A stretch of 54,430 nucleotides of DNA, taken from the IMG/VR virus record IMGVR_UViG_3300020182_003422, positions 1 through 54,430 of that record; one strand, 5' to 3'. The notes under the pieces were generated by a model that was not told where the DNA came from, did not search any database, and was given only the letters and a program-made list of their open reading frames with translations. Made by a program: the position numbers and the translations under genes. Of the stretch, positions 21,666 to 39,411 are shown in pieces; the first letter of the stretch is position 1, and each line of letters opens with the position of its first letter. This DNA comes from a virus.

Positions 21666-21675
21666 TACAATACTT

Positions 21676-22746
21676 ATGAACAACGAACATTTCCCAAATA
21701 GAATTCTTGAAGCTCTTCAAGAAAAAGTAAAAGCTCACAACGCAAAGTGCGCAAGCAAAATAACTCTATCTCAATTACAAAAGGTTTATCGGCGCGGAGC
21801 AACTGCGTTTGCGCAATTCGGCAAACCTGGAAAAGCTCGAGGTCAATGGGCAATCGCTAGAGTAAATATGTTCTTAAAAATGGTACAAGGCTTTCGAGTT
21901 AAAGACTCCTACAGAAAAGCTGACCAAGATATTTCAGACGCTGGAGTTTTAATCGACGATGGAGTTAGGGACGAAAATTTCTTTTCTGAAGAGAACTTGA
22001 TAGAGGCTAGTATAGAAATAAAACAAAACCAACTGCAAGAAGATCCATCTTTCACCTCAGAAATGTGGGCCACAATCTTTATCGATGTCGACGAACTAGG
22101 TTTTGAAGAGTACATAAACGAAGAAGCGTGGGCTGCGGAAAAAAACAAAGGAAAAAAATTAAACAAACCCTTCAGGACATCTAAAGGTCCAAAGAAATTT
22201 TCTGTTTACGTTAAAAACGAAAAAGGTAATGTAGTAAAAGTTAACTTTGGAGACCCAAATATGGAAATAAAACGGGATAATCCCGCCCGAAGAAAAAGTT
22301 TCAGAGCTAGGCATAACTGCGAGAATCCAGGCCCTAAAACAAAAGCTAGATACTGGAGTTGCAAAATGTGGAGCAAAAAGAGCGTCACAAACATGACCAA
22401 AGCAGAAGAGGCAGAAGACCTAGAGGAGTCAGAAGAGGTTGAAGAGCAAATTCTCGAAGAAGAATCCGAAGCAAAAAAAGGCCTTTGGGAAAACATCAGA
22501 GACAAGAAAAAAAGAATGGGCAAAAAATATAAAGCCGCAAAGCCTGGAGATAAAGATCGCCCAAGCAAAGAGGCATGGAAAAAAGCTCAATCTAAAAAAA
22601 TGAAAAAAGATTACGCAGCGGAAGATGAATTTAAGCCTCATATGATGTATGACCCAAAAACAGGAAAAGCTTATAAAGCTAAAACCATGGAAGACCATTT
22701 AAAAATGAAGAAAATGGGATATACTCACGAGAAACCTAAAGCTTAA
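21676..22746 (+). CDS. Multidomain phage protein with DUF5824-like N-terminus, 356 aa
   Basis: ATG 21676 follows the fcl stop by 10 bases; an upstream TTG is less likely. Three modules can be seen. Residues about 15-65 (KITLSQLQKVYRRGATAFA, ARGQWAIARVNMFLKMVQG) resemble DUF5824. Residues about 175-240 hold VKVNFGDPNMEIKRDNPARRK and the Cys/Trp-rich SFRARHNCENPGPK, RYWSCKMW. The last 100 residues are an acidic stretch (EEAEDLEESEEVEEQI), then KKGLWENIRDKKKRMG and a basic tail. From memory, these modules appear, shuffled, as extensions of head and portal proteins in large marine phages. The cysteines and His could bind zinc. The role is unknown. A terminator follows the gene, ending the long operon. 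Confidence 0.75.
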   Translation: MNNEHFPNRILEALQEKVKAHNAKCASKITLSQLQKVYRRGATAFAQFGKPGKARGQWAIARVNMFLKMVQGFRVKDSYRKADQDISDAGVLIDDGVRDENFFSEENLIEASIEIKQNQLQEDPSFTSEMWATIFIDVDELGFEEYINEEAWAAEKNKGKKLNKPFRTSKGPKKFSVYVKNEKGNVVKVNFGDPNMEIKRDNPARRKSFRARHNCENPGPKTKARYWSCKMWSKKSVTNMTKAEEAEDLEESEEVEEQILEEESEAKKGLWENIRDKKKRMGKKYKAAKPGDKDRPSKEAWKKAQSKKMKKDYAAEDEFKPHMMYDPKTGKAYKAKTMEDHLKMKKMGYTHEKPKA

Positions 22747-22770
22747 AACTCCAACAACTTAAAACCTAAA

Positions 22771-22800
22771 GCCTCGCTAGTTCCTAGCGGGGCTTTTTTT
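22771..22800 (+). terminator. Rho-independent terminator after the sugar operon
   Basis: GCCTCGCTAG and CTAGCGGGGC form a 10-bp stem (one wobble pair) around a TTC loop, followed by seven T. It lies 25 bases after the stop of the 356-aa gene. Confidence 0.9.
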
Positions 22801-22817
22801 GGCACGATTATAGCAAA

Positions 22818-22855
22818 TATAATATTGTAAACTCAATAACGCAGTCGTTATTGAG
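22818..22855 (+). promoter_or_regulatory. hsp20 leader: -10 box and perfect 10-bp hairpin
   Basis: TATAAT lies at 22818-22823 without a convincing -35 box. From 22832 the sequence CTCAATAACG-CAGT-CGTTATTGAG forms a perfect 10-bp inverted repeat with a 4-base loop and no T run. If the promoter is real, the hairpin would sit at the very 5' end of the transcript. It could be a stabilising or thermosensing leader, or an operator for a repressor. Confidence 0.5.
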
Positions 22856-22903
22856 ACAAATTTACACATTACATACAAACAACAATCAAAACAAGGAGAC
22901 AAT

Positions 22904-23299
22904 ATGTCATACTATATCAAAAACAATAATTCTTTACATTCTTTCTTAGATTCCATATTAGACGATTTATACTATGAAGATTTAAAACCTCAAAGAAAAT
23001 CTAACATTATAAAAGAAGAAGGCTTCGTAACTATACAAATCGAAGCGGTAGGATTAAATAAAAAAGATATCGATATACAAACAAAAGAAAATATACTACA
23101 TGTATCATACGAGAATAAAATAAAAGATGATACCAAATACTCACAACAACAAATATCCTTCGATTCATTCGAAAATAAATATAAACTGCAAAGCGATATG
23201 GATTCAAAAAATATATCCGCAACAATGAATAATGGATTATTGAATATAAAAATCCCTAATATTAAAAATAAAACAAGCTCAAGAATAAAAATAACTTGA
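22904..23299 (+). CDS. Small heat-shock protein Hsp20, 131 aa
   Basis: An alpha-crystallin-type holdase. The core domain spans roughly residues 38-130: FVTIQIEAVGLNKKDIDIQTKENILHV, then SFENKYKLQSDMDSKNISATMNNGLLNIKIP, which has the A-x-x-x-N-G-L-L/I-x-I motif characteristic of the family. The N-terminus (SLHSFLDSILDDLYYED) is short. A clear AAGGAG site lies 6 bases before the ATG, unlike most operon-leading genes here. Hsp20 genes are common in large T4-like marine phages, and the role in infection is uncertain, probably scaffold or capsid protein folding. It has its own leader, with the -10 box and hairpin at 22818-22855. Confidence 0.9.
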   Translation: MSYYIKNNNSLHSFLDSILDDLYYEDLKPQRKSNIIKEEGFVTIQIEAVGLNKKDIDIQTKENILHVSYENKIKDDTKYSQQQISFDSFENKYKLQSDMDSKNISATMNNGLLNIKIPNIKNKTSSRIKIT

Positions 23300-23324
23300 C
23301 ATTTGCATAAAAATGCTTTACTAT
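23296..23324 (+). promoter_or_regulatory. Promoter of the outer-membrane protein cassette
   Basis: TTGACA (23296-23301), a 17-base spacer containing a GCAT-ATGC dyad, and TACTAT (23319-23324). The -35 overlaps the end of hsp20. The predicted transcript would have about a 10-base leader before ATG 23341. Confidence 0.75.
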
Positions 23325-23340
23325 AGTGCTCTTTAATATT

Positions 23341-23994
23341 ATGAAGAAAACAAAATTAATTATTACCGCCCTTTTAGGGTTTTTTATTAACGCCGCATCA
23401 GCAGAAACTTATTCTCTAGGCACAAAATACGCTTCCGATTATTTCTTTCGAGGTTCGCTAATGACCCAAGAGTCTATTCAGGCAGATCTGGGAGTAAGTG
23501 GAAAAGTTTTTGGCTTGGATTATTCCGCGAATGCATTTACAAATCAATCGGTAGAATCGGGAGTAGATACTTATATTCTTAACGGAGGGGTATCGAGAAG
23601 CTTTTTTGGAGATCTGCTTGGGGCGTATGCAGGAATTGGTCACATAGAAAATGTTTCAGGAGAAGCTTTAATGGAGGTAAACGTTCGACTAAGCGTTGAC
23701 ACTCTATTATCTCCAACCGTTTCTTTTTTCAGGAATTTGAACGAGTCCCTGTATACCTCAGAGTTATCGCTATCTCATGACCTTGATCTAGATTTCGCCT
23801 CACTGGGCATTCTAGGTTCTGTTGGAATATCTGACCTAACAAACTCAAACAGCGAAACCTATCATTCATTAGGGGTGAACGCTTCAAAATCCATTGGAGA
23901 AAAATCTGAAATCTGCCTGGGAATTGAAAGAGCTGACTCGGATTTAATTGAGGCGGAATATATTTTCGCACTAGGTGTTTCAACACAATTCTAA
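23341..23994 (+). CDS. Outer-membrane beta-barrel, TorF/Gcw_chp-like, 217 aa
   Basis: The start ATG 23341 gives a clean Sec signal peptide (MKKTKLIITALLGFFINAASA, cut after ASA). A GTG at 23326 would add five residues and overlap the promoter, so it is not chosen. The mature protein begins ETYSLGTKYASDYFFRGSLMTQ, close to the SDYxFRG signature of the TorF/Gcw_chp putative porin family. The rest is alternating beta strands ending in a C-terminal aromatic, VSTQF, as expected for outer-membrane insertion. It has its own promoter and shares a terminator with the following membrane gene. In a phage this could alter host permeability or block a receptor. Family assignment is moderately firm, role is inference. 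Confidence 0.72.
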   Translation: MKKTKLIITALLGFFINAASAETYSLGTKYASDYFFRGSLMTQESIQADLGVSGKVFGLDYSANAFTNQSVESGVDTYILNGGVSRSFFGDLLGAYAGIGHIENVSGEALMEVNVRLSVDTLLSPTVSFFRNLNESLYTSELSLSHDLDLDFASLGILGSVGISDLTNSNSETYHSLGVNASKSIGEKSEICLGIERADSDLIEAEYIFALGVSTQF

Positions 23995-24002
23995 AATAAA
24001 TT

Positions 24003-24242
24003 ATGAAAAATACAATCGATACGATTAAATCATATGCAGGAGGCGTTACAAGCGTTCTTTTGTCAATAATCGGCCTCTTGGTCGTAGCTCAAGTCGTCTT
24101 TGGCGAAGGAGCTCCTATTAACGTAATCGGCAACCTTCAGGACGTCGTAACTGGATTTGTCGGGCAAGGCGCCTCCTTAGCGGGAATCATTACCTTGTTG
24201 CTATTGGTCGCTTTATTGAGGCCAAGCCCAGATAAAGGCTAG
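24003..24242 (+). CDS. Small membrane protein with two TM segments, 79 aa
   Basis: Two hydrophobic helices are evident: about residues 15-33 (GVTSVLLSIIGLLVVAQVVF) and 52-71 (GQGASLAGIITLLLLVALL). The loop between holds GEGAPINVIGNLQDVVTGFV, and the ends are charged and short. This size and topology fit holins and other small phage membrane proteins, but no family is recognised. It lies 8 bases after the outer-membrane barrel gene and just before a strong terminator. The two genes therefore form a compact transcription unit aimed at the envelope. A holin role is possible, but its location away from late genes argues against it. Confidence 0.7.
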   Translation: MKNTIDTIKSYAGGVTSVLLSIIGLLVVAQVVFGEGAPINVIGNLQDVVTGFVGQGASLAGIITLLLLVALLRPSPDKG

Positions 24243-24267
24243 TAGATAATCTACCCCAAACACAATC

Positions 24268-24291
24268 AAGCCGCCTTCGGGCGGCTTTTTT
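24268..24291 (+). terminator. Rho-independent terminator after the barrel/membrane pair
   Basis: AAGCCGCC and GGCGGCTT form a perfect 8-bp stem with a stable TTCG loop, followed by a run of T. It is 25 bases after the stop of the 79-aa gene. Confidence 0.95.
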
Positions 24292-24375
24292 GTGCTCTGA
24301 CAACTTCCGCTGAATTTATTGTGTATTTAGTATTCCATAGTTGCAAAAAAGTTATTTACACAGGCTAGTTTTAAA

Positions 24376-24404
24376 TTGACATATGCCCATTTAAATGGTA
24401 TCAT
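24376..24404 (+). promoter_or_regulatory. Promoter of the nrdA transcription unit
   Basis: TTGACA (24376-24381), a 17-base spacer and TATCAT (24399-24404). The predicted leader is only 7 bases (ATAAAAT) before ATG 24418, with no Shine-Dalgarno. Confidence 0.85.
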
Positions 24405-24417
24405 TATAAAATAAAAT

Positions 24418-26835
24418 ATGAACATAAACGTAAAAAAACGAAACGGTAGACTTCAGCCTTTTTTGGTAGAAAAAATTAACGCAAATGTAGAAAGAGCATG
24501 TAAAGAAATCGAGGACACTTCCGTCAGTGAAGTTCTTCTTGATGCTCAATTGCAATTGTTCGACAAAATAACAACGAGTCAAATAGATACAGCTCTAATT
24601 CTTTCTGCTAGAGAGAAAATAGAAAAAGAACCAAATTACAGCTTTGTTGCTGCGAGATTATTGCTAAACACTGTATATAAAGAAGTTTTCAAAGAGGGAG
24701 TTGATTCGGACACTTTTAAACTTCAATACAGAAAAAGCTTTATACAAAATATAAAAAAGCTAGTAAAACTAGAAAAGCTCAACCCAAAAATGCTTGAATT
24801 CGATCTCGCAAAATTATCCGAAGCTTTAAGAATAAGGAGGGACGAGTCTTTTAAATACTTAGGTATTCAAATTCTAACCGATAGGTATTTCATTAGGCAC
24901 GACGATAAAATCATGGAGGCTCCTCAATGTTTCTGGATGAGGGTTGCCATGGGGTTATCTCTAAACGAAGAAAACAAAGAAGAAAGTGCGATCAAAATAT
25001 ATGACATGTTTAGTCAGTTTTTGTATACTTCTTCTACCCCGACTCTTTTTAATAGCGGGACTACTCATTCTCAATTAAGCTCTTGCTATCTCAACACTTT
25101 TGACGACAGTATCGACGGCATTTTTGATGGAGCGTGGCAAGAAGCTAGAAAATCTAAGTTTGCAGGCGGCTTGGGGTTTGATGTAACTCCGTTCAGGTCT
25201 TCAGGTTCTCACATTAAAGGTACAAACGGAATATCTGGAGGCCTAATACCTTGGCTTAAAATCTACAACGACCTTCTCGTTGCAGTAAATCAAGGAGGAA
25301 AAAGGCCTGGAGCAGGGTGCGCCTATCTTGAACCTTGGCACTTAGATTACGAGGATTTCCTTAACTTAAGAAGGAACACTGGAGACGATCGGCTGCGCTG
25401 CCACGACATGAACACTGCGTCTTGGATTCCTGATGAATTTATGAGAAGAGTAAAAAACGAAGATGTTTGGTACTTTTTTGATCCGTCCGAGGCCGATTTG
25501 CACGACTGCTTCGGAGCTGAATTTGACAAAAAGTACAACCAGCTATGTAATCAAGCAGAAGAAGGTTTAATAAAAAATTATAGAATAACTACTGCAAAAG
25601 AACTTTGGAAAAAAATGCTTAAAGTCTTATTTGAAACCTCTCACCCATGGAACACATTTAAAGACCCCTGTAATATACGCTACACAAATCAACACGAAGG
25701 AGTCGTTCACAGTAGCAACCTCTGTACGGAAATAACGCTCCACACAAAGGCCTCGAAGTACGACAAAGGCGAAAAGACAGAAATAGGAGAAACAGCGGTC
25801 TGCAATCTTGGATCAATCAATATCCTTAATCATATGAAAGAAGATGATACGATTGACTATGACAAGCTAAAGAATACAATTCACACTGCGATTAGAGCTT
25901 TAGACAACGTGATAGACTTAAACTTCTACCCAACAAAAGAAGCGAGCAATTCCAACTTGAAAAACAGGCCTATTGGGCTGGGAATGATGGCCTTGCACGA
26001 TGTACTGCATAGAATGAATATAAACATTGATAGCGATGAAGCTGTTAAATTCAATGACGAATTGTTTGAATTCTATTCTTACCATTCTATTTTTGCCAGC
26101 TCCCAACTCGCTAAAGAAAAAGGTTCCTACAAAACTTACAAAGGGTCACTGTGGAGCCAGAATAAACTGCCAATCGATTCTTATGCAGATTTAATGAAAT
26201 ACAAGGGCAAGAAACCAAACCTCGAATCCTCTCTGGATTGGAGCGAGGTCAGGAACCACATCAGCGAGCACGGCATGAGAAATTCAAATGTGATGGCTAT
26301 TGCCCCTACGGCAACAATCGGCTATATAAACGGAGTCGAACAAAGCGTTGAGCCAAATTTCTCTGTATTATTTGTTTATGAAAATAAAAGCGGAAACTTT
26401 TACATCACTAATCAGCATTTTATAAATGATATGAAAAAAGAAGGGTTATGGAATTCTAATACCGCAAAACTAATTAAAGATGCCGACGGAGATCTTTCTG
26501 TATTAAATGGAGACATCCCTTCATGGATAAAGTTAAAATATAAAACGGCATTTGATAGAGATATGTTCAAACTGATAGACTGCAATGCAGTCAGGCAAAA
26601 ATGGATCGATCAGGCCATAAGCTTTAATTTGTACAATAAAGAAACATCCTTGAAATATTTAAATGACGTATATATGTCTTGCTGGGAAGCTGGATTAAAA
26701 ACAACATACTACCTAAGAAATAGGGCTGCATCTAAAGTTGAAAAATCAACATCAGAATCAGACAAAGGGGAAGAAGCCTCGGCTTGCAGCATTGAAGCTG
26801 CGAAAAACGGGGGGTCTTGCGAGAGTTGTCAATAA
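24418..26835 (+). CDS. nrdA: Class I ribonucleotide reductase large subunit, 805 aa
   Basis: Reduces ribonucleotides to deoxynucleotides for phage DNA synthesis. The N-terminal 90 residues form an ATP-cone (VKKRNGRLQPFLVEKINANVERACKEI), so dATP feedback may be retained. The catalytic barrel shows SSCYLNTFDDSIDGIF (N-terminal active-site Cys), GGLGFDVTPFRSSGS, PGAGCAYLEPWHLDYEDFL and SNLCTEI, which holds the active-site Cys and Glu, then AVCNLGSINI. NVMAIAPTATIGYINGVEQSVEPNFS and a C-terminal CxxC pair (SCESC) for thioredoxin-type re-reduction finish the protein. The length is typical. It starts a unit with its own promoter, and nrdB follows with another. Confidence 0.96.
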   Translation: MNINVKKRNGRLQPFLVEKINANVERACKEIEDTSVSEVLLDAQLQLFDKITTSQIDTALILSAREKIEKEPNYSFVAARLLLNTVYKEVFKEGVDSDTFKLQYRKSFIQNIKKLVKLEKLNPKMLEFDLAKLSEALRIRRDESFKYLGIQILTDRYFIRHDDKIMEAPQCFWMRVAMGLSLNEENKEESAIKIYDMFSQFLYTSSTPTLFNSGTTHSQLSSCYLNTFDDSIDGIFDGAWQEARKSKFAGGLGFDVTPFRSSGSHIKGTNGISGGLIPWLKIYNDLLVAVNQGGKRPGAGCAYLEPWHLDYEDFLNLRRNTGDDRLRCHDMNTASWIPDEFMRRVKNEDVWYFFDPSEADLHDCFGAEFDKKYNQLCNQAEEGLIKNYRITTAKELWKKMLKVLFETSHPWNTFKDPCNIRYTNQHEGVVHSSNLCTEITLHTKASKYDKGEKTEIGETAVCNLGSINILNHMKEDDTIDYDKLKNTIHTAIRALDNVIDLNFYPTKEASNSNLKNRPIGLGMMALHDVLHRMNINIDSDEAVKFNDELFEFYSYHSIFASSQLAKEKGSYKTYKGSLWSQNKLPIDSYADLMKYKGKKPNLESSLDWSEVRNHISEHGMRNSNVMAIAPTATIGYINGVEQSVEPNFSVLFVYENKSGNFYITNQHFINDMKKEGLWNSNTAKLIKDADGDLSVLNGDIPSWIKLKYKTAFDRDMFKLIDCNAVRQKWIDQAISFNLYNKETSLKYLNDVYMSCWEAGLKTTYYLRNRAASKVEKSTSESDKGEEASACSIEAAKNGGSCESCQ

Positions 26836-26851
26836 TTGATCCATTTTTGGG

Positions 26852-26880
26852 TTGACTTCGTTATCAATGTATGATATATT
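26852..26880 (+). promoter_or_regulatory. Promoter of nrdB, predicted leaderless
   Basis: TTGACT (26852-26857), 17 bases, TATATT (26875-26880), 6 bases, ATG 26887. The predicted start site is the A of the start codon. Confidence 0.82.
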
Positions 26881-26886
26881 ATAATT

Positions 26887-27900
26887 ATGGAAGATAAAAC
26901 TGGAAAACTATTAACTGAAGATGTGGCAGGCGTAAACAGAATATTACCCCACAAGCACAAATACGCATGGGATTTATTTCTAAAAAGCTGCGCAAACAAT
27001 TGGATGCCAACAGAAATCTCAATGCAAAACGACATTAAACAATGGAAGAATAATGAAATTACAGAAGATGAAAAATTACTTGTTAAACGCTGCCTTGGGT
27101 TTTTTGCTGGATCTGAGTCTCTGGTCGGTAATAATCTTTTGTTATCTGCCTTTCGCTATGTTACGGACGCTGAGTGCCGTCAGTACATCCTTCGTCAAGC
27201 GTTTGAAGAAAGCCTTCACAACCTCACGGTAGTTTATATTTGTGATAGCCTTGACCTAGATATAGAGGAAGTGTTCAACGCTTACGAAACGATTCCCAGC
27301 ATAAAAGCCAAGGATGATTTCCTGATGCAAATAACCAATGATATTAGTGCTCAAGATTTTGACGCAAACTCAACAAAGGGCAAACAAGAAATATTAAGAA
27401 ACTTCTTAACGTATTGGATAGTGTGCGAAGGAACATTCTTTTTTAGCGGCTTCGCAATGCTTCTTGCTCTAGGAAGGCAAAATAAACTTCAAGGCATCTC
27501 CGATCAAATTAAATACACCCTCAGGGACGAGAGCTCTCACATTGCATTTGGAACTTACTTAATAAATACAATTATAGAGCAAGAGCCTGAAGTTTGGACC
27601 AAGGAAATGCAGGATGAATTTGTCGAACACATGAAAAAAGCTGTGGAGCTCGAGATAGCTTATGCCCACGACGTGCTTCCCACTGGAATTCTAGGTTTAA
27701 ATGCGGATATGTTTGTGGATTATATGCACTATATTGGCAATCGCAGGCTAGAGGCTATAGGGTTAGACTATAGATTTCCAAGTGACAAAAACCCATTCCC
27801 CTGGTTGGGAGAAGTGGTCGATGTTCAGGCAATGGGAAACTTCTTTGAGAGAAGAGTAAGGGAATATCAACAAAGCGGATCCCTTGAGGACGACTTCTAA
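26887..27900 (+). CDS. nrdB: Class Ic-type ribonucleotide reductase small subunit (R2c), 337 aa
   Basis: Supplies the oxidant for NrdA. All six metal ligands are present: Glu77 (GFFAGSESL), Glu108 and His111 (FEESLH), Glu181 (CEGTFFFSG), Glu215 and His218 (RDESSHIAFG). The residue four after His111, where class Ia/b proteins carry the radical Tyr, is Val115. As recalled, the Chlamydia trachomatis R2c residues (Glu89, Glu120, His123, Phe127, Tyr129, Glu193, Glu227, His230) map here with a constant offset of 12, including Tyr117. C-terminal sequence (PTGILGL, DRNPFPW-like NPFPW, EYQQSGS) is also chlamydial in type. Such proteins use a Mn/Fe cofactor instead of a tyrosyl radical. A Glu instead of Asp as first ligand agrees. 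This is a strong prediction, with the cofactor not tested. Confidence 0.93.
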   Translation: MEDKTGKLLTEDVAGVNRILPHKHKYAWDLFLKSCANNWMPTEISMQNDIKQWKNNEITEDEKLLVKRCLGFFAGSESLVGNNLLLSAFRYVTDAECRQYILRQAFEESLHNLTVVYICDSLDLDIEEVFNAYETIPSIKAKDDFLMQITNDISAQDFDANSTKGKQEILRNFLTYWIVCEGTFFFSGFAMLLALGRQNKLQGISDQIKYTLRDESSHIAFGTYLINTIIEQEPEVWTKEMQDEFVEHMKKAVELEIAYAHDVLPTGILGLNADMFVDYMHYIGNRRLEAIGLDYRFPSDKNPFPWLGEVVDVQAMGNFFERRVREYQQSGSLEDDF

Positions 27901-27932
27901 TGTAAAGGCTTTAATTTGGTGTAAATAGTATT

Positions 27933-30077
27933 ATGAATAAGTTAATAATTATTACACTTTTATCAATACTGTCATCAATATCATCCTTCTCTTCAATTAA
28001 TAGAGATTTTTACTCAAAGAATAAGCAAAAAATAAATGGATCAATAGTAAAATACTTCGACAATGGAGATGTCTTATTAGAAAGATCAAATGACAAACAA
28101 TTGTTCAGAATAAAACTAGATATATTCACAGAAGATGATCAAGCTTTCGTAAAAAACAATTTTCCACCCAATCATGAATCTCTACCCACATTCAAAAAAC
28201 CTCTTTCAGATAAAGATTTAAAAATTAATTCAGAATTTATAGATAAAATTATCGAATCGAAACTCAGGTCTTATGGAGAAAGGCCTAATAAAGAAATCTC
28301 TAACGAGACTTTTCTTCGAAGAGCCTACCTGAAGATTATTGGAAGGATACCCACCTTAAAAGAAGCTCAGGGTTTTCTTGGAAACAGGGATAAAAAATCC
28401 AGAACTCAACTAATTGATAAACTTTTAAACTCGGAAGGGTACAATAAAAATTGGTATATCTATTGGGCCGATATACTCCGAGCGAAAACTCGAGTAGGAA
28501 ATCAAGGTTCAGATGGGTATCCGTTTATAAAATACATAAAAGATTCCATTTCCTCGAATAAGCCTTACGATATTTGGGTTAAGGAAATGCTTTCTTCTAC
28601 AGGTCCTATGTGGGAAATGAATAACGGGGCTGTTGGCTATTTTTACCGCGACCAAGGCATGGGACTAGACAACATGTCGAATACGGTTCGTGTGTTTCTC
28701 GGTACAAGCTTGGAGTGCGCTCAATGCCACGATCACCCCTTCGACCGCTGGACACAAAAACAGTTCTACGAAATGGCTGCATTTACCAATGGAGCAGAAA
28801 GAATGAAAAGAAAAGATGAAGAGCTTAATAAACTTTCAAAACTCATAAGAGCCTTACAGAAAGAAAACCCAGAAGACAGAAATAAAATTCGAAGAGCTTT
28901 CCTTCCAGTGCAAAACTTACTATCTCCAGGCTTAGACGACTTAGGAAAAGGTTCGATTTCTTTACCCAAGGATTACCAATACGACAATGCAAAACCTGGG
29001 CAAAAATTAAAAGCTAAAACTATTTTTGGTTTAGCGGTAGAATTAGATGAAAACCTCGAACAAAAAGGTTCCCGCACTTCTTATGCTAGTTGGTTAGCGT
29101 CTGCTACTAACCCTAGGTTTTCAACTGTAATAGCGAATCGGCTGTGGAAATCTGCTTTTGGATATGGTTTAATAGAGCCTGTGGATAATATATACGATGA
29201 CACGCTACCGGTTCATCCAGAAATGATGCTTCATTTAGAAAAGTTGATGGTTGCCTTAGACTTTGACACAAAAGAATTTTTAAGAATTATTTATAATACA
29301 AAAGCCTTCCAAAGAGAGGTTCCAATAGGAGATATAATCCCTAGAGACTCAAAAGATGACTCGCTACCCCCAGAGGTGAAGTGGGTAATATCTAAAACTC
29401 AAGGAAATAAACCTTACTTCTATCAAGGTCCCGTAATGCAAAGAATGAGCGCTGAGCAAATTTGGGATTCATTAGTGACTCTAAATTTTTACGATTTAGA
29501 TAATAGAATTAATTCTCGAGCTCCCGAAGAAGGTTTTGAGGAATACCTTAGATACAAAGAGATGACGGCTGAAGAAATATTTCAAGAAATCGCACCCAAA
29601 CTTAAACAGCAAGAAGCTGTCTCTATGACCCCAATAAAAAAACAGGAGTCAAGCAGCAAGACGAGCCCTAAACGAAAAGGGTTTTTAACTCGCGATATAA
29701 ACTCCCTAAGAGCTTCTGAGGTTGGGGATCCTGCGCCCAGAGGGCATATGATTTTACAGTTCGGAGGGTCTCCTCGTGACCAAATCCAAGTATCTCATAA
29801 GGAAGCGGCAGTCAATCAAGTACTGGCTTTAATCAATGGCTATGTCGAAAAGAATATTATTAATAATAAAAAGTCCGCCACCCTCAGTGAAATCCTCGAA
29901 GCTTCAAGCATGGAGGAAAGGATTAATTTATCATTTCTTGCCATTTTACAAAGAAAACCTAACTCTAAAGAACTAAAAGATTTTAAAGAAACAATTAAAA
30001 AACTAAACACCAAGGATTACCATAAGGACATAGTTTGGGCTCTAATAAATAGTCACGAATTTATGTTTGTTAAATAA
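27933..30077 (+). CDS. Secreted DUF1549/DUF1553 protein with SHD1-like N-terminus, 714 aa
   Basis: A host-type protein of planctomycetes and verrucomicrobia, unexpected in a phage. Residues 1-21 form a Sec-like signal (KLIIITLLSILSSISSFSS). Residues about 34-76 resemble the SLA1-homology domain 1 seen at this place in verrucomicrobial homologues (YFDNGDVLLERSNDK, LDIFTEDDQAFV). DUF1549 follows (about 100-300), with FLRRAYLKIIGRIPT and a haem-like CxxCH in ECAQCHDHPFDRW (Cys262, Cys265, His266). DUF1553 spans about 385-710 (YASWLASATNPRFSTVIANRLWK, LMVALDFDTKEFLRII). No biochemical function is established. The next gene, 1 base downstream, is its usual partner DUF1501. No key part is missing, so it looks functional. 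Confidence 0.9.
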   Translation: MNKLIIITLLSILSSISSFSSINRDFYSKNKQKINGSIVKYFDNGDVLLERSNDKQLFRIKLDIFTEDDQAFVKNNFPPNHESLPTFKKPLSDKDLKINSEFIDKIIESKLRSYGERPNKEISNETFLRRAYLKIIGRIPTLKEAQGFLGNRDKKSRTQLIDKLLNSEGYNKNWYIYWADILRAKTRVGNQGSDGYPFIKYIKDSISSNKPYDIWVKEMLSSTGPMWEMNNGAVGYFYRDQGMGLDNMSNTVRVFLGTSLECAQCHDHPFDRWTQKQFYEMAAFTNGAERMKRKDEELNKLSKLIRALQKENPEDRNKIRRAFLPVQNLLSPGLDDLGKGSISLPKDYQYDNAKPGQKLKAKTIFGLAVELDENLEQKGSRTSYASWLASATNPRFSTVIANRLWKSAFGYGLIEPVDNIYDDTLPVHPEMMLHLEKLMVALDFDTKEFLRIIYNTKAFQREVPIGDIIPRDSKDDSLPPEVKWVISKTQGNKPYFYQGPVMQRMSAEQIWDSLVTLNFYDLDNRINSRAPEEGFEEYLRYKEMTAEEIFQEIAPKLKQQEAVSMTPIKKQESSSKTSPKRKGFLTRDINSLRASEVGDPAPRGHMILQFGGSPRDQIQVSHKEAAVNQVLALINGYVEKNIINNKKSATLSEILEASSMEERINLSFLAILQRKPNSKELKDFKETIKKLNTKDYHKDIVWALINSHEFMFVK

Positions 30078-30078
30078 A

Positions 30079-31377
30079 ATGAAAACAAATATCGAAAAAT
30101 TAGACGAATTAAAAAGAAGAGAGTTTATTACAAGCGCGGCAAAGGCGTGCCTCGGAGTTGGGCTCCTACCAATGGCTGGTTCTTATATTCATAATAGCGC
30201 TGAAGCTTTTACTACTGGCCCTAGGCCCGCTACCGCCCGTTATGTTATTTACTTAAATATGAGCGGAGCGATGTCTCATCTCGATACATTTGGAACAAAC
30301 CCAGATGTGCCAGAGATACAAGGCCCAACAAAATCTATTCCGACTTCTGCTGACGGGGTTATTCTTTCTGAGAACCTTCCGTTAACCGCAAAACACATGC
30401 ATAATGCTGCAATCATTCGAACAATGTCAACAAGTCAAGGGGCTCACGAACAAGCAAGTTATCTTATGCATACAAGCTATTTAAAGCGAGGTACCATTGC
30501 CCACCCTACATTCGGAAGCTGGGTATCAAAACTTTCGGGAGCAATCAATAGCACTATTCCATCCAATGTGCAAATCGGATCTAATCCAGCAGGAGCTGGA
30601 TTTCTTGAGTCTAAATTTGGACCCCTCCCAATAGGCAACCCAAGCAGTGGCTTAGCAAACAGTAAGCTTGCAGACTATATTGATCAAAATCGATTTGGAG
30701 GCCGTTTATCTATGGCTCAAAAAATGAACTCCTCTTACCTTAACCAATATGATCAGAAGCAGGTTCGAGCTTACTCTGATCTTTATAAAGACGCGGTCAA
30801 ACTTATGCGAAGCGAGGACTTGAAAGCTTTTGATATAACTCTAGAGCCAGAGTCAATGCATGAACTTTACGGAAAAACCAATTTCGGGCAGGGCTGCTTG
30901 CTTGCTCGCCGCTTAATAGAAAATCAAGTTCGTTATGTGGAGGTTAGTCGAGGAGGGTGGGACACCCACGATAATAACTTTGAATCCGTTGCGGACAATT
31001 GCGCAGACATTGATAAAGCGTTAAGCGCTCTTTTGATTGATCTTGAAATGCGGGGACTGCTTAAGGAAACTATGGTTGTTTTGACTTCAGAATTTGGCAG
31101 AACCCCCAAGATAAACGAGCGTGACGGAAGAGATCATTGGCCGTATGGATTTACGGCTTTTCTTGCTGGCGGGGGAATTAAAGGGGGGACAGTCTACGGA
31201 AAAATGGATGAGCTAGGCAGAAACCCAGCCGAGGGTAAATTTGTTGACCCGGCATCGTTAAATGCAACTATAGCATATGCCATGGGGCTACCCTTAAATA
31301 AAATACAAACATCTCCCTCCGGCAGGCCATTTAAAGTAGCCCACGACGGAAAGCCCTTGTTTGATATACTTAATTAA
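30079..31377 (+). CDS. DUF1501 protein with Tat-like signal, 432 aa
   Basis: Start ATG 30079 follows the DUF1549 stop by 1 base; an in-frame TTG 12 bases earlier is less likely. Residues about 12-36 (KRREFITSAAKACLGVGLLP) resemble a twin-arginine signal. The body matches DUF1501, a relative of the alkaline phosphatase/sulfatase superfamily: VIYLNMSGAMSHLDTFGTNP near the start, ARRLIENQVRYVEVSRGGWDTHDNN, TSEFGRTPKINERDGRDHWP and FLAGGGIKGGTVYG towards the end, carrying the presumed metal-binding Asp and His residues. In PVC bacteria this gene is normally next to DUF1549/DUF1553, as here. Its substrate is unknown. A strong terminator follows at 31396. Confidence 0.92.
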   Translation: MKTNIEKLDELKRREFITSAAKACLGVGLLPMAGSYIHNSAEAFTTGPRPATARYVIYLNMSGAMSHLDTFGTNPDVPEIQGPTKSIPTSADGVILSENLPLTAKHMHNAAIIRTMSTSQGAHEQASYLMHTSYLKRGTIAHPTFGSWVSKLSGAINSTIPSNVQIGSNPAGAGFLESKFGPLPIGNPSSGLANSKLADYIDQNRFGGRLSMAQKMNSSYLNQYDQKQVRAYSDLYKDAVKLMRSEDLKAFDITLEPESMHELYGKTNFGQGCLLARRLIENQVRYVEVSRGGWDTHDNNFESVADNCADIDKALSALLIDLEMRGLLKETMVVLTSEFGRTPKINERDGRDHWPYGFTAFLAGGGIKGGTVYGKMDELGRNPAEGKFVDPASLNATIAYAMGLPLNKIQTSPSGRPFKVAHDGKPLFDILN

Positions 31378-31395
31378 TAATTAAAACAACCCACT

Positions 31396-31419
31396 AAAAC
31401 CGCTATTAGCGGTTTTTTT
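31396..31419 (+). terminator. Rho-independent terminator after DUF1501
   Basis: AAAACCGC and GCGGTTTT pair around a TATTA loop, followed by T residues, 19 bases after the DUF1501 stop. It closes the nrdA-nrdB-DUF1549-DUF1501 unit. Confidence 0.9.
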
Positions 31420-31435
31420 GTTTACAAGTTTAGTG

Positions 31436-31464
31436 TTGACAACTTAATGAAATTCTGGTAAAAT
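31436..31464 (+). promoter_or_regulatory. Promoter of the split polymerase unit
   Basis: TTGACA (31436-31441), a 17-base spacer and TAAAAT (31459-31464), 7 bases before ATG 31472. The transcript would begin about one base before the start codon. Confidence 0.83.
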
Positions 31465-31471
31465 ACTCTAC

Positions 31472-32230
31472 ATGATACCATTATTTAAAAGCCACTTCTC
31501 AATTGGGAAAAGTATACTTACTCTAGCAAACCCAAGAGATCAAAAAGAAGGAAAAGCAGACAGTGTTTTCTCAATAGCTAAAAGCTGTAAATTAAAAGAG
31601 GTTGTGTTAGTGGAGGATTCGCTAACAGGATTTCTTCAGGCCAAAAAAAACGCAGACGACTTGAAGATTAAATTAATATTTGGGTTAAGGATCGACATGA
31701 GAACCGATGCAAAAATAAACCCAAAAGAAGAGCTCTTAACTTCTTCGCATAAAATAATTATTTTCGCAAAAAACTCAAAAGGGTGCGAGCGGTTAAATAA
31801 AATCTACAGTGAGGCTTTTTCGGATAATTATAACGCGGTAGACGAGAAATTACTAAAGAAATACTGGAGCAAGAAAGATCTAGCCTTAGCTATACCTTTT
31901 TACGACTCATTTATATATAACAACTTAATGAAATTCTCTAACTGCACTCCAAACTTTTCTCCTTATAGTCCGATCTTCTTTACTGAAGATAACTCGCTAC
32001 CGTTTGATAACTTTCTAAAGAGAAAGGTAGAAGATTACGCATTAAAAAATAAACTAGAAACACAAGAGACAAAAAGTATTTATTATAAAAATAAAAAAGA
32101 TGCCACCGCATTACAAACCTACAAATGTATAACCGGAAGAACTTTCGGAAACAAAACCTTATCAAAACCAAACTTAGATCACTTCGGTAGCAATGAATTT
32201 TGCGTCGAAAGCTGGGAGGAAAAAAAATGA
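31472..32230 (+). CDS. Stand-alone PHP domain of DNA polymerase III alpha, 252 aa
   Basis: The N-terminus IPLFKSHFSIGKSILTLANP corresponds to the HxHxxxSxxDG region that opens the PHP domain of DnaE, though only one His is kept. IAKSCKLKEVVLVEDSLTGFLQAKKNADDLKIKLIFGLRID is the next conserved stretch (tdhg.l.g...f...a...gik.i.G.E), then KIIIFAKNSKGCERLNKIYSEAF matches the l..la.n..Gy.nL..l.s.a segment. The product stops after PHP (bacterial DnaE continues into the polymerase). The next two genes carry exonuclease and polymerase. The degenerate motif suggests a structural rather than catalytic PHP. TGA overlaps the exonuclease ATG. Confidence 0.78.
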   Translation: MIPLFKSHFSIGKSILTLANPRDQKEGKADSVFSIAKSCKLKEVVLVEDSLTGFLQAKKNADDLKIKLIFGLRIDMRTDAKINPKEELLTSSHKIIIFAKNSKGCERLNKIYSEAFSDNYNAVDEKLLKKYWSKKDLALAIPFYDSFIYNNLMKFSNCTPNFSPYSPIFFTEDNSLPFDNFLKRKVEDYALKNKLETQETKSIYYKNKKDATALQTYKCITGRTFGNKTLSKPNLDHFGSNEFCVESWEEKK

Positions 32231-32871
32231 AAGAATCACTACTAAGGTTTAAGAAAAACCAAAAATACCTACTGTTTGATTACGAAACATGCAACCTAAA
32301 CTTAACCGCAAATAACAAACCCTGGCAACTAGCGTTCTTAGTGATTGAAGGCGGAGAAGTAAAAGAAAAGAAAGATTATTGGCTAAAATGGAAAGAGCTT
32401 AATGTATCTCCGGAAGCTGCAAAAATCACAGGTTTTACTGAAGCTAAATACAAAAAGAAAGCTACCTGCCCAAAAGAAGCCTTAGATGACTTTGAGCAAT
32501 ACCTATACGACGATTCTTATATCAAGGTTGGCCATAATTTACTAGGGTTCGATGTATATATGCACAACCTGCACAGAAAACTAATCAACCCAAAAGCCGA
32601 ATCAGACTATAGTTATACAGAAAATTTAGTAGACACCCTCTGCCTCGCGAAAGCTTTAAAGAAAAGGATAAAGCTAGATAAAGATGATGATTTTTTAGCT
32701 TGGCAATACAGACTCAACAACTTAATAGAAAGAGGTCTTCGCTGCAACCTCAAACAATGCTGCAAGGATTTTGATGTCGAATTCAACGAATCAAATCTAC
32801 ACGATGCCCTTTATGACATCAATATTAATTTCGAAGTTTTTAAAAAAATGATATGGGAAATAGAAATATGA
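32227..32871 (+). CDS. DnaQ-like 3'-5' proofreading exonuclease, 214 aa
   Basis: ATG 32227 overlaps the PHP stop as ATGA; a longer upstream form (MRRKLGGKK...) would run into the PHP gene and is rejected. DEDDh motifs are complete: YLLFDYETCNLNL (Asp, Glu), VGHNLLGFDVYMHNL (second Asp region), and HDALYDININFEVFKKM (His and Asp of the third motif). VSPEAAKITGFTEAKYKKKA is the typical loop between. In other systems this activity is either a separate DnaQ subunit or inserted in the PHP domain of PolC; here it is a gene between PHP and polymerase. It is coupled to both neighbours by 4-base overlaps. Confidence 0.88.
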   Translation: MKESLLRFKKNQKYLLFDYETCNLNLTANNKPWQLAFLVIEGGEVKEKKDYWLKWKELNVSPEAAKITGFTEAKYKKKATCPKEALDDFEQYLYDDSYIKVGHNLLGFDVYMHNLHRKLINPKAESDYSYTENLVDTLCLAKALKKRIKLDKDDDFLAWQYRLNNLIERGLRCNLKQCCKDFDVEFNESNLHDALYDININFEVFKKMIWEIEI

Positions 32872-35426
32872 GCTTTACAGAACAGTTTACAGATTATAAA
32901 GATTGCTGCCCACCGGGGGTGCGTTTGCCTGAGATTAAAATCGAGCAAAAATATTACGATATACTTAAATCAGATAACACAATATCTAATTTTGAGTTCC
33001 TTAAAAAGCTTTGCCACAAAGGAGTTTATGACAAGGGGATAGATAAATTCAATAATAAGAAAGATTACTTCGATAGAGCGAAAGAAGAATTAAAAATATT
33101 AAAAGAGTTAGGTTTTATTGATTATATATTATTAAATTGGGACATAATTAACTTTTGCCACGAAAAGGATATTCCTACTGGCCCAGGAAGAGGGTCTGCA
33201 GCAGGCTCTCTGGTATTGTATTTGATTGGGGTAACGAACGTCGACCCCGTTAAGTATAATTTATTTTTTGAAAGATTCGTATCTAAGAGTCGAGCAAAGA
33301 AGACAATTCAAGACGGAGTCACTTTTTTAGACGGAAGCCTTCTTGCTGATGTTGATAACGACATAGCCTACGAAAGAAGAATTGAAGTTATAGAGTATAT
33401 CGAAAAGAAGCACCCTGGGAGGACAGCTAAAATATTAACATTAAATACTTTAAGCGGAAAGCTATGCATTAAGGAGTGCGGCAAAATCGTAGGAGAGCTT
33501 TCTGAGCAGGAAGTTAATGAAGTCAGCCTCACAATACCAAAGAAATTTGGAGTAGTGCTTCCTATATCCGAAGCCTTACAAGAAAGCGAAAAATTCGGAG
33601 AATGGTCTGGAGAGAATTCAGAGGTATTCGAAATAGCTCTTAAGCTAGAAGGCTTAAATAAAAACACGGGAGTTCATCCTAGTGGGATTGCGATATCATT
33701 TGACGAAATAACCAAGACTTGCCCTACTCAGCGAACTAACGATGGCGCACTGGTAACGGGATACGATATGAATTGGGTGTCTGAGTTGATGGTCAAGTTC
33801 GACATATTAGGACTTAGAACCTTGAGTGTTATATCTGATGTTTGTAAAGACTTAGGGATATCGAGTGAAGAAATCGACTTAAATGATTCGAACTTATTCG
33901 CTCCCCTCCAATCCTTAAAAACTCCACATGGTTTATTTCAATTAGAGTCTGATACTAATTTTAGGGTCTGCAAAAAGATCAAACCAGTAGACTTAGAGCA
34001 ATTAAGTGCGGTTATAGCAATTGGAAGGCCGGGAGCTTTAGACTTTTTAGATAGTTATGTGACATATTCAGAAAGCGGAGAATCTCAAGTGATACACGAC
34101 TTTTTTACTGATATTCTAGATTACACAGGAGGAATACCCTTGTACCAAGAACAGCTAATGCAGATGGCCGTAAAAATAGGTTTTACTCTCGACGAGGCGG
34201 AGCAATTGAGAAGGATAGTCGGCAAAAAAAAGGTAGACCAAATGCCTGCGTGGAAAGCTAAGATAGAAGAAAAAGTTGAAGAAAATGACTTGCCTAGAGA
34301 AATTAGTCAGATACTATGGGGAGTTGCAGAGGACAGCGCGAACTACTCATTCAATAAGAGTCATAGTATATCTTACTCAGTGCTTTCGGCCTGGACTACT
34401 TACTTAAAATTCAAATACCCACAACAATTCTTCTTATCTTTATTAAAGATGACCAAGTATGAGCCTTCCCCTCAAGAAGAAATATCCAAAATATCCAAAG
34501 AGCTGTCTCACTTTGGAATTCGATTACTATGTCCAGACTTAGCTAAATCTAAAATGGATTTTTCCATTGAAGGGAAAGATATAAGGTTTGGCTTAAATAG
34601 CATAAAGGGAGTTAGCGAGAAATCCCTAGAGTCACTTAGGGACTTTAGGTCAACAGACACTCCGACTAAGTACGATATTTTCTTAGCGGCAAAACAAGCC
34701 GGGCTAAACATAGGAATATTAAGCGCCCTAGCTCAAGCTGGAGCCATGCAAAGTAAAGGCGAAAACCGCTCACTAATGGCACTAGAAGCTCAAGCCTTCA
34801 ATATATTAACTGATAGGGAGAAAAGAAACTTTATACTTCTTGGAGAAAAATACAACTACAAGCTTCTGAACTGCATAGCGGATGCAAAAAAGGGCCTACT
34901 AATCGCAGATGACGGCAAGCCATTAATGAAGGAGTCGAGATTCAACACCTTTAAGAAAAAGTACGATAGATATAAATCTATTTATGATAAAAACAAAAAG
35001 TACGAACAATTCGCAAATTGGTATTTTGAAACAGAGCTTTTGGGCTACAGTCACAGCTCAAATTTAAAGACTTGCTTTATGGATAGCTACAACTCACTAA
35101 ATGATTCTAGAGACTTGATGATGCTTGAGGCGGATGGAAAAGGTAAATTTATAGGAGTCGTAGAAGATTGTATAAAAAGAACGTCTAGAAACGGAAATAA
35201 GTATATGAAATTATCGATATCGGATGAATATGGAAGGTACGATGCGATGCTACTAAATTCAAGAAGGGGTAATTTTTACGACAAATACTTCAGCTCCGAG
35301 CAAAAAACTCCGCTAAAGAAAAATATCGTAGTCGCATACGGAAGGAAGGGAGAAGACATTGTTTTTCTTGACTCTTTATCCATAATGGACGAGAAGATAT
35401 ATATGAAAATGTCTGAAATTAAGTAA
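32868..35426 (+). CDS. dnaE: DNA polymerase III alpha, polymerase core without PHP, 852 aa
   Basis: ATG 32868 overlaps the exonuclease stop as ATGA. The palm contains GPGRGSAAGSLVLYLIGV (residues about 109-126), the first catalytic pair in LLADVDNDI (Asp161, Asp163) and the third Asp in KFDILGLRTLSVI (Asp312). HPSGIAIS, GLFQLES, AIGRPGALDFLDSYV, PLYQEQLMQMA and FNKSHSISYSVLSAWTTYLKFKYP are standard DnaE fingers and core motifs. An OB-fold region follows near residues 740-830 (GVVEDCIKRTSRNGNKYMKLSISDEYG), with a short end. The catalytic triad is intact. This is the replicative polymerase of the phage. With no PHP or exonuclease inside, it must work with the two genes upstream. Confidence 0.93.
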   Translation: MSFTEQFTDYKDCCPPGVRLPEIKIEQKYYDILKSDNTISNFEFLKKLCHKGVYDKGIDKFNNKKDYFDRAKEELKILKELGFIDYILLNWDIINFCHEKDIPTGPGRGSAAGSLVLYLIGVTNVDPVKYNLFFERFVSKSRAKKTIQDGVTFLDGSLLADVDNDIAYERRIEVIEYIEKKHPGRTAKILTLNTLSGKLCIKECGKIVGELSEQEVNEVSLTIPKKFGVVLPISEALQESEKFGEWSGENSEVFEIALKLEGLNKNTGVHPSGIAISFDEITKTCPTQRTNDGALVTGYDMNWVSELMVKFDILGLRTLSVISDVCKDLGISSEEIDLNDSNLFAPLQSLKTPHGLFQLESDTNFRVCKKIKPVDLEQLSAVIAIGRPGALDFLDSYVTYSESGESQVIHDFFTDILDYTGGIPLYQEQLMQMAVKIGFTLDEAEQLRRIVGKKKVDQMPAWKAKIEEKVEENDLPREISQILWGVAEDSANYSFNKSHSISYSVLSAWTTYLKFKYPQQFFLSLLKMTKYEPSPQEEISKISKELSHFGIRLLCPDLAKSKMDFSIEGKDIRFGLNSIKGVSEKSLESLRDFRSTDTPTKYDIFLAAKQAGLNIGILSALAQAGAMQSKGENRSLMALEAQAFNILTDREKRNFILLGEKYNYKLLNCIADAKKGLLIADDGKPLMKESRFNTFKKKYDRYKSIYDKNKKYEQFANWYFETELLGYSHSSNLKTCFMDSYNSLNDSRDLMMLEADGKGKFIGVVEDCIKRTSRNGNKYMKLSISDEYGRYDAMLLNSRRGNFYDKYFSSEQKTPLKKNIVVAYGRKGEDIVFLDSLSIMDEKIYMKMSEIK

Positions 35427-35443
35427 TTGAGGTGTAATCAGAA

Positions 35444-37921
35444 ATGAAAATGACTCCAAAACCTAATTTTACGCCGAGAGCTCAGCAAGCAATTAACGAA
35501 TCTAAAAAAATCGCATTAAAATATGGAAACGAACTAATAACCTTAGACCACTTATTCCTTGGAATGGTAAATCTAAGCGCGGGAATACTAAGTGAAGTTT
35601 TATATTTATTACAAATAGATCAAGAAGCGTTAAGGATACAGATAGAAAACTCGCTGTTCGACTTCAACCAAGAGGGGAATAATATATTCATACCTGAAGA
35701 CCTAGAACCTGTTTATGATGAACATTTCCACTTAGTATTAAAAGTGTCCGCCGCGATCAGCGATAAGCTTGGTCATGAGTATGTTGGATTAGAACACATT
35801 CTACTGGCTTTACTAAAATACGAGGATTCTAATATTCCTCATTACTTTGAATCGTTTCACGCCTCAGGGGATGACATTATTGCAGAGGTAAGGGAATACT
35901 TACATTTATCCAAGGATTACGTACAACCCAAGCAGGATCGATTAAAATTCTTCACTCAACAGGCAGCCCCAAAAGAGGCAAAGTTAACTAATCTCGAAAA
36001 GTTCGCAACGAACTTAAACCTAAAGGCTCAGCAGGGAAAATTCGACAACATAATAGGAAAAGAAAAAGAAATAGATGATGTGTGTGAGATTTTATGCAGA
36101 AGGACAAAGAATAATCCAGTACTGCTTGGAGAGCCTGGCGTCGGCAAAACAGCGATAGTGGAAGGCCTAGCACAGAACATAGCGAGAGGCACTAGTTGCG
36201 ACTTTCTAATAAGTAAGGTTATATATTCGCTAGACCTAGGCTCTTTAATAGCCGGAACAAAATACAGAGGCCAGTTTGAGGAAAGATTGAAGGCTATTAT
36301 AGACGAAGCGAGAAAGAATACAGATATAATACTATTTATAGACGAAATACATACGCTAGTAGGAGCTGGAAGCGCAGAAGGAAGCATGGACGCTGCAAAT
36401 TTATTGAAACCTCTATTGGCTAGAGGCGAATTAAAATGTATAGGAGCTACAACGCAAGCCGAATATAAAAAATCAATACTAAAAGACGGAGCCCTAGATA
36501 GAAGATTTCAATCCGTTAAGGTTATCGAGCCAAGTAAAGACCAAACTCGCCAAATCATAGATGGAATAAAATCTAATTATGAAAAATTTCACACGATTAT
36601 ATATCCAGAAGACGTACTAGATTTAATTGTTGATCTATCCTCAAAATACATACTTGACAAGCAATTTCCTGATAAGGCTATTGACATAATGGATCAAGCG
36701 GGGTCAAAGGTTAAAATAAAAAATATCGAACGGCCACAAAAAGCCAAAGACATAGAAAATCAGTTAGAGCAATTAGCGCTAGAGGAGTCAAAAATTCAAT
36801 CAAGCGGCGCATTACTTTCTAAAATTGAAGATGAACAAATAAATCTATTAGAGCAATACGACCAAGTCATAACTCAGTGGGCAGCCAAAACCATGAAAGC
36901 TAAAATATGCGTTACCAAAAAAGATATATATGAAGTCCTATCGTCTAGAACTGGGGTTCCTATTTCAGATATATCCAAAAAAGATTCCGAAAGAATGCTA
37001 GGCTTATTTAGAAACCTAAACAAAAAAATTGTTGGACAAACAGAGGCTTTGTCTGAAATCTCGGAATCAATATTAAGATCTAAGTCCGGGCTTCAAGACG
37101 CAAACAAGCCTGTCGGAAGTTTCTTGCTGGTGGGCGCTAGTGGCACAGGTAAAACATATACAGCAAAATGTATTGCTGAATTTATATATGGATCAATGAA
37201 ATCCTTGATACAACTAGATATGAGCGAATACTCAGAGAAAATATCCTCAAGCAGGCTAATTGGAGCCTCGCCGGGATATGTTGGCTATGAAGAAGGAGGA
37301 GAGCTGACGGAAAAAGTAAGAAGAAATCCTTATAGCGTTATACTTTTTGATGAAGTAGAAAAAGCCCACCCAGAGGTATTAAATATACTGCTACAGATAC
37401 TTGAAGAAGGTATATTAACTGATAATTCAGGAAGAAAAATTGACTTCTCTAATTGCATAATTATATTAACAGGAAATATAGGAAGCGAGAAAGCTGCAAA
37501 ACCTAATATAGGATTCGGAACTTCAGACGGAAAAGAAGAGGCAAAGAATAAACTAAAAGCGGAGCTTAAAACATTCTTTCGCCCAGAGTTCCTCAACAGA
37601 CTTAACGATATAATATTATTTAACGATTTCAATCTTAGTATATTAACAGAAATAACCAAGCTAGAACTTAAGAAATTATCTGATAAATTAGAAGAGAAAA
37701 AAATAAAACTATCAACAACTACATCCTTAATTAAATACATAGCCGAAGAGGCTATGAAAGAAAAAATGGGAGCGAGACCTATAAAAAGACTAATACAAAA
37801 AAATATAGAAAACGAATTAAGTAAATTGATACTCGGCAAATCCCTCACAGAAGGATCCTTAGTTAAGTTTTCCTATACAAAGTCCGAGGTCAAATACCAA
37901 ATTAAGGAATTAGAGGCTTAA
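35444..37921 (+). CDS. ClpC/ClpA-type AAA+ unfoldase, 825 aa
   Basis: An N-domain with two Clp repeats (about 8-75 and 80-150: FTPRAQQAINESKKIALKYGNELITLDHLFLG, GHEYVGLEHILLALLKYE) is followed by NBD1 with GEPGVGKTAIVEGLAQNIARG (about 228) and Walker B LFIDEIHTLVGAG. A short linker (no full ClpB-type middle domain) leads to NBD2 with GASGTGKTYTAK (about 564) and LDMSEYSE, SPGYVGYEEGGELTEKVRRNPY, VILFDEVEKAHPEV. An IGF tripeptide (689-691, in KPNIGFGTSDGK) occupies the place of the ClpP-binding loop. An upstream GAGGTG serves as ribosome site. It may unfold host or phage proteins, possibly with the host ClpP. The gene ends overlapping the opposing gene by 20 bases. Confidence 0.9.
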   Translation: MKMTPKPNFTPRAQQAINESKKIALKYGNELITLDHLFLGMVNLSAGILSEVLYLLQIDQEALRIQIENSLFDFNQEGNNIFIPEDLEPVYDEHFHLVLKVSAAISDKLGHEYVGLEHILLALLKYEDSNIPHYFESFHASGDDIIAEVREYLHLSKDYVQPKQDRLKFFTQQAAPKEAKLTNLEKFATNLNLKAQQGKFDNIIGKEKEIDDVCEILCRRTKNNPVLLGEPGVGKTAIVEGLAQNIARGTSCDFLISKVIYSLDLGSLIAGTKYRGQFEERLKAIIDEARKNTDIILFIDEIHTLVGAGSAEGSMDAANLLKPLLARGELKCIGATTQAEYKKSILKDGALDRRFQSVKVIEPSKDQTRQIIDGIKSNYEKFHTIIYPEDVLDLIVDLSSKYILDKQFPDKAIDIMDQAGSKVKIKNIERPQKAKDIENQLEQLALEESKIQSSGALLSKIEDEQINLLEQYDQVITQWAAKTMKAKICVTKKDIYEVLSSRTGVPISDISKKDSERMLGLFRNLNKKIVGQTEALSEISESILRSKSGLQDANKPVGSFLLVGASGTGKTYTAKCIAEFIYGSMKSLIQLDMSEYSEKISSSRLIGASPGYVGYEEGGELTEKVRRNPYSVILFDEVEKAHPEVLNILLQILEEGILTDNSGRKIDFSNCIIILTGNIGSEKAAKPNIGFGTSDGKEEAKNKLKAELKTFFRPEFLNRLNDIILFNDFNLSILTEITKLELKKLSDKLEEKKIKLSTTTSLIKYIAEEAMKEKMGARPIKRLIQKNIENELSKLILGKSLTEGSLVKFSYTKSEVKYQIKELEA

Positions 37922-38411: not shown

Positions 38412-38430
38412 AATACTTATTTACACATAT

Positions 38431-38952: not shown

Positions 38953-38953
38953 A

Positions 38954-39361: not shown

Positions 39362-39411
39362 AATTTATACCTTTTTCCTTTGTGTGTTAATACACTTATA
39401 ATATTGATTTT

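Follow-up and report, generated by a model that had tools for sequence, protein, structure and literature searches.

The gene pair and its unit in the window

We analysed a 54,430-base viral record, and the whole of this stretch is called the window below. It contains terminase, primase, DnaB-type helicase, UvsX/RecA and tail fibre genes, and the terminase, tail and replication genes surround the pair described here, as in a tailed phage genome. The DNA polymerase and the terminase are distant from those of cultured phages (under 33% identity in the best listed matches). The first gene of the pair (27933-30077) encodes a 714-aa protein made of a signal peptide, a small beta-barrel (SHD1-like), a DUF1549 (PSCyt2) domain (28239-28796) and a DUF1553 (PSD1) domain (29073-29990), the last two in this order and both above the Pfam cut-offs (E = 1e-44, 153 bits, and E = 2e-29, 103 bits, respectively). 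The second gene (30079-31377) encodes a 432-aa protein with a Tat signal and a DUF1501 domain (30238-31368) matched over the whole domain by PF07394 (E = 1.5e-105, 354 bits for a cut-off of 27). Both genes, with their domains and motifs, lie on the plus strand. A previous sequence-only reading held them to be complete and one base apart, and this was borne out: both reading frames are intact, the stop codon of gene 1 occupies 30075-30077 and the ATG of gene 2 is at 30079. This ATG was taken as the start of gene 2 since it is that of most relatives; the mechanical list of reading frames opens at a TTG at 30067.

The CxxCH expected in the first protein is present as CAQCH (aa 262-266, 28716-28730). 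Exactly one such motif was found in each of the 63 aligned DUF1549/1553 proteins, C262, C265 and H266 being invariant columns of the alignment, and it is a possible c-type haem site. The SHD1-like N-terminus read in the same protein stood in part: aa 24-61 form a small beta-barrel in the structural model, with weak resemblance to Hfq/Tudor-like barrels (E about 1), but no Pfam match to SHD1 was obtained at E≤0.01. In gene 2, the Tat-like signal was recovered as an RRxF twin-arginine motif (RREF, 30115-30126), whose two arginines are invariant in 93 aligned DUF1501 proteins. Export signals are present in the viral copies as had been proposed, and the assignment of the pair to a PVC family of unknown function was supported.

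Upstream of the pair on the same strand are nrdA (24418-26835, named from sequence reading) and nrdB (26887-27900, 89-100% identical in near relatives), for the large and small subunits of ribonucleotide reductase. A sigma-70-like promoter (24376-24404, plus strand; TTGACA-17-TATCAT with TG before the -10) precedes nrdA, and the terminator announced after the pair corresponds to a strong intrinsic-terminator-like hairpin (31396-31416, plus strand; 9 pairs, then a T run). These two sites, which are consensus matches and not proof, would frame a unit beginning with nrdA and ending after gene 2. A second terminator-like site (24268-24287) lies ahead of the nrdA promoter-like site, and a further promoter-like site, also a consensus match, lies between nrdA and nrdB. 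The pair shares its strand with nucleotide and replication genes, the structural block being on the opposite strand, and nothing stood out in the base composition. The link with nrdA and nrdB drawn in the sequence-only reading holds as a single unit in the window but does not extend to the relatives, where nrdA adjoins the pair in only part of them and where the pair is found after nrdB, before a convergent nrdB, in the gap between nudix and PHP genes, after gmd/fcl or after ClpABC. Since the neighbours of the pair change in this way, a general connection with nucleotide metabolism via nrdAB was rejected.

Three other regions of the window drew our attention. In this phage lineage, the PHP domain, the exonuclease and polymerase III alpha are each encoded by a gene of their own (31472-35426 in the window). 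The protein encoded at 21658-22746 (DUF5824/PHROG 7595) is often beside DUF1501 in other phages. Finally, a 656-aa membrane protein with a long coiled coil (7160-9130) is conserved in the lineage and has no family match.

Occurrence in phages and origin in Opitutia

DUF1501 was found in 49 other IMG/VR contigs, 34 from a first scan (61-100% identity) and 15 from a profile-based scan (52-74%), and about 30 of them also carry DUF1549/1553. We therefore consider the pair to be phage genes and not an assembly join. In these contigs the genes are intact and lie between phage genes, which settles the question of whether they are broken in other phage genomes. Contig L002 is 99.88% identical to the window over 21693-40000, and an assembly chimera or host contamination is ruled out by it together with the other viral contigs. 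The bacterial origin of the pair might suggest host DNA that was joined during assembly, or a neutral passenger. Both readings are already refuted by the 49 contigs with several positions between phage genes, by the near-identical contig and by the strong purifying selection described below, and we give them practically no weight. Neither protein had a match in 50,697 phage records or in PHROGs, in agreement with the claim that no known phage carries the pair, cultured phage records being covered by this search. Similarity in polymerase or capsid brought up 40 records, many of them fragments; 16 of these carry DUF1501, always in single copy, indicating that the module is optional.

Other arrangements were seen as well. 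A second phage lineage (L157, L159, L162, L166, L174, L176 and L177) has three to four DUF1501 paralogs per record, with twin-arginine starts and 29-37% identity to that of the window; they have no DUF1549/1553 and lie near nrdA/nrdB, recA, DnaB or primase. In PVC phages, the role of DUF1501 is possibly a larger one. In L006, the window-type DUF1501 is separated from the PHP gene by an insertion (11317-15626) of a 34% DUF1501 paralog with two large flanking genes, and L007 likewise has extra DNA at this place. In L151-L154 and L171, a 40-42% DUF1501 has as neighbours a second DUF1501 and a DUF1549/1553 of only 592-608 aa, an arrangement that is another independent capture.

The nearest cellular relatives of the pair are in Opitutia (Verrucomicrobiota) MAGs, with up to 89% identity. 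In one Opitutia family, an ortholog at 65-89% is present in 36 of the 42 genomes, most of which also have a paralog at about 50%. While the six Opitutia genomes tested have 10-58 DUF1501 genes each, the near viral copies all group with one ortholog group. The corresponding host operon has three genes, DUF1549/1553, DUF1501 and a PSCyt1/LRR cytochrome, and at the host loci L057 and L058 the neighbours are ordinary bacterial genes (cysteine desulfurase, sulfatase, RecQ and tRNA-guanine transglycosylase). In a maximum likelihood tree of 87 DUF1501 sequences, five changes between host and virus were needed, all forced by starred branches, and none of the bootstrap trees (0%) had a single change. 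A single ancient capture was thereby rejected, and with at least five changes between host and phage forced by the trees, capture must have been recurrent. The clade of the window falls inside the host lineages G004/G025/G030 and relatives; L136 and L138 group with a different host lineage, a set of 12 viruses is the sister group of 12 further hosts, and two more viral clades branch deeper. In the DUF1549/1553 tree, the gene of the window is beside the same seven hosts as in the DUF1501 tree. The trees show several separate captures by phages of DUF1501, with or without the upstream DUF1549/1553, from one core Opitutia operon. The sequence-only reading had proposed an undescribed system; the pair is a partial copy of this core operon rather than a free-standing system.

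Besides being captured from hosts, the alleles travel among phages. On the phage polymerase tree, the DUF1501 allele type switches 7 times where 3 would suffice, and sister phages differ in their allele (L021/L148, L139/L019 and L035/L008), showing at the sequence level that phages swap DUF1501 alleles among themselves. A block of the window (22794-32229), with a terminator-like site at its start, shares 94.6% identity with L003 as against 72% for the downstream flank, indicating that the cassette moves between phages.

Given the origin of the genes, this lineage of large phages very probably infects Opitutia. A 79-aa two-helix membrane protein (24003-24242) shows 86-100% identity in most relatives, and its conservation often exceeds that of the polymerase. 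The homologs of this protein (43-51%), found in 7 of 10 Opitutia genomes and usually as doublets in tandem, support the host link. Two more genes of the window were considered as further envelope genes from the same hosts and rejected. One is gmd, which with fcl forms a GDP-fucose pathway segment (19681-21665); it is 58-97% identical among most relatives and only 43-45% identical to Opitutia hosts. The other (23326-23994) adjoins the unit of the pair and encodes an outer-membrane-barrel-like protein with a signal peptide, 33-86% identical in relatives outside the near-identical contigs; it had no match in Pfam, PHROGs or ten host genomes, the latter searched with no positive control.

Genes kept by phages and predicted fold

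The third gene of the host operon, with two PSCyt1 cytochrome motifs and leucine-rich repeats, follows in all 31 host ortholog loci fetched, being split or cut by the contig end in some. It is absent from 28 whole viral records, in a search that found the host positive control. Phages carry either DUF1501 alone or DUF1549/1553 with DUF1501, and 13 viral records have DUF1501 without any DUF1549. L012, whose DUF1501 is 99% identical to that of the window, retains the first 104 bases of gene 1; after them a stretch of 2,037 bases that reaches to the start of DUF1501 is gone, and the two sides of the join overlap by about ten bases. The DUF1501-only records, the L012 deletion and the lack of the cytochrome together indicate that DUF1501 is the selected part and DUF1549/1553 optional. 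Within phages, dN/dS was 0.015-0.068 for DUF1501 and 0.045-0.078 for DUF1549/1553, after exclusion of pairs with saturated dS. These ratios show strong purifying selection on the phage copies, whose export signals are intact, and no convergent adaptive substitutions were found in phage copies compared with hosts. In near hosts, DUF1553 contains YHS/TRASH-like cysteine inserts, one or two per protein; a single one is kept by many phages and is carried by the clade-iii phages, whereas the clade of the window has none.

We then turned to predicted structures. The DUF1501 model was confident (pLDDT 88) and matched PDB sulfatases, sulfamidase, choline sulfatase, alkaline phosphatase and lipoteichoic acid synthases (LtaS) by Foldseek, with E = 1.7e-6, probability 1.0 and 164 PDB matches at E≤0.001, at a TM of about 0.4 and about 10% identity. 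This model places DUF1501 likely in the alkaline-phosphatase/sulfatase superfamily. Candidate active residues are D69, T132, D295, H297, E338, D352 and H353. Positions 69 and 338 are acidic in all 93 aligned DUF1501 proteins, which also all keep D295 and H353; H297 is kept in 89 of them and position 132 is Thr/Ser in 92. The order of these residues is presumably that of the metal ligands and nucleophile of the alkaline-phosphatase superfamily. E338 is the only one placed on a sulfatase site, by a weak alignment in which the Asp-Asn-Gly of sulfatases aligns with Glu-Phe-Gly of DUF1501. No classical (S1) sulfatase formylglycine site (Cys/Ser-x-Pro-Ser-Arg) was found in the aligned DUF1501 sequences. 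When compared by sequence with solved structures, DUF1501 gave weak sulfatase matches only (E 0.36-0.43) and DUF1549/1553 none; the DUF1549/1553 model, likewise confident (pLDDT 88), had no fold match at E≤0.001. What the fold prediction and the signals make likely is an exported hydrolase; the changes to the host envelope or polysaccharide metabolism put forward in the sequence-only reading are a possible consequence. Together with the conserved candidate residues, fold and signals lead us to favour a putative exported metallohydrolase working with host partners.

Proposed role, alternatives and known systems

We propose, with a probability of about 0.6, that the pair is a host-derived auxiliary module providing an exported hydrolase that acts through the periplasmic machine of the Opitutia host. 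In an infected cell, DUF1501 would be synthesised and folded before leaving through the host Tat system. Its substrate, in the periplasm or on the cell surface, would be a charged one, either sulfated or phosphorylated. There it may dock on the host DUF1549/1553 and PSCyt1-LRR partners, a contact with PSCyt1-LRR to which only the absence of that gene from phages points. With such docking, the phage would need to supply only the catalytic part, with or without a matching DUF1549/1553. The module would keep up or redirect the host activity while infection shuts down host gene expression. A bolder version, which we advance tentatively, is that phage DUF1501, with or without DUF1549/1553, plugs into the resident PSCyt1-LRR cytochrome and so commandeers a redox-linked periplasmic machine specific to PVC bacteria, with alleles matched to the host lineage and traded between phages. 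If true, plugging into a host cytochrome would be a new kind of interface between phage and host at the envelope.

The enzyme might instead serve superinfection exclusion, altering or hiding a receptor structure and thereby blocking other phages or keeping progeny from sticking to debris. A probable exported hydrolase, captured recurrently and subject to allele swapping among close phages and to block exchange between phages, would suit such a role. The very low dN/dS and the closeness to the host protein nevertheless fit a native role better than an arms race, the phage copies show no convergent substitutions, and we consider exclusion possible but doubtful. Slightly less probable still is scavenging, in which the pair would boost breakdown of sulfated or phosphorylated algal polysaccharides for nucleotide and virion synthesis, as auxiliary metabolism. 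The sulfatase-like predicted fold and the single unit with nrdA and nrdB in the window are consistent with it, as is the frequent presence of sulfatase genes near PSCyt genes in Verrucomicrobia (PMC5615132). The nrd linkage, however, is not conserved among relatives. Polysaccharide loci are usually variable, whereas nearly all genomes of the host family have the captured ortholog. Finally, large phages are known to carry enzymatic tail parts and a host enzyme could be co-opted for the particle, for instance as a tail-associated hydrolase, but a virion protein is very improbable given the twin-arginine signal in aligned viral copies, the signal peptide of the DUF1549/1553 partner and the location of the gene among nucleotide and replication genes, on the strand opposite to the structural block.

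Under the host-derived auxiliary module that we favour, phages repeatedly choose one core ortholog out of the many DUF1501 genes of an Opitutia genome, and the retention of DUF1501 when its partner is lost, with the cytochrome never taken, names the component that matters. The phage copies, compact and intact, can be assayed and open a way into a protein family that ranks among the largest without known function in Opitutia bacteria. The probable donor also designates the probable host of a large uncultured marine phage lineage.

Among known systems, the pair resembles the Opitutia operon (L056, JABGUO010000230.1; L057; L058) in the order of the first two genes, the Tat signal, the CxxCH and the conserved residues, with 74% (gene 1, to L056) and 88% (DUF1501) identity. 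Unlike this operon, it has no third gene and no YHS-like DUF1553 inserts, and it is part of a phage transcription unit. The Pfam match far above the cut-off and the predicted fold liken gene 2 to DUF1501 (PF07394) and the alkaline-phosphatase/sulfatase superfamily, while it differs from classical sulfatases in having no visible CxPSR motif. DUF1800-DUF1501 pairs, which adjoin bacterial chitin synthases and were moved by horizontal transfer (PMC5122149), likewise combine a Tat-type DUF1501 with a DUF partner, but the partner domain and the bacteria differ and those pairs are not in phage. In the papers that could be searched, none of DUF1501, DUF1549, DUF1553 and DUF1800 is assigned a function, and the DUF1549/1553-DUF1501 pair is not reported from a phage; the only phage paper found to name DUF1501 reports a weak match of a 61-aa protein. 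A UniProt entry from an uncultured phage (A0A6J5M742) is labelled DUF1501, with no published comment found, meaning that the domain had already been seen in phage sequence. As in phage auxiliary metabolic and envelope genes, a host gene appears to have been captured and kept functional. Host gene capture by phages is known; what is new in this case is its recurrence at a single core periplasmic operon, with the cytochrome left behind.
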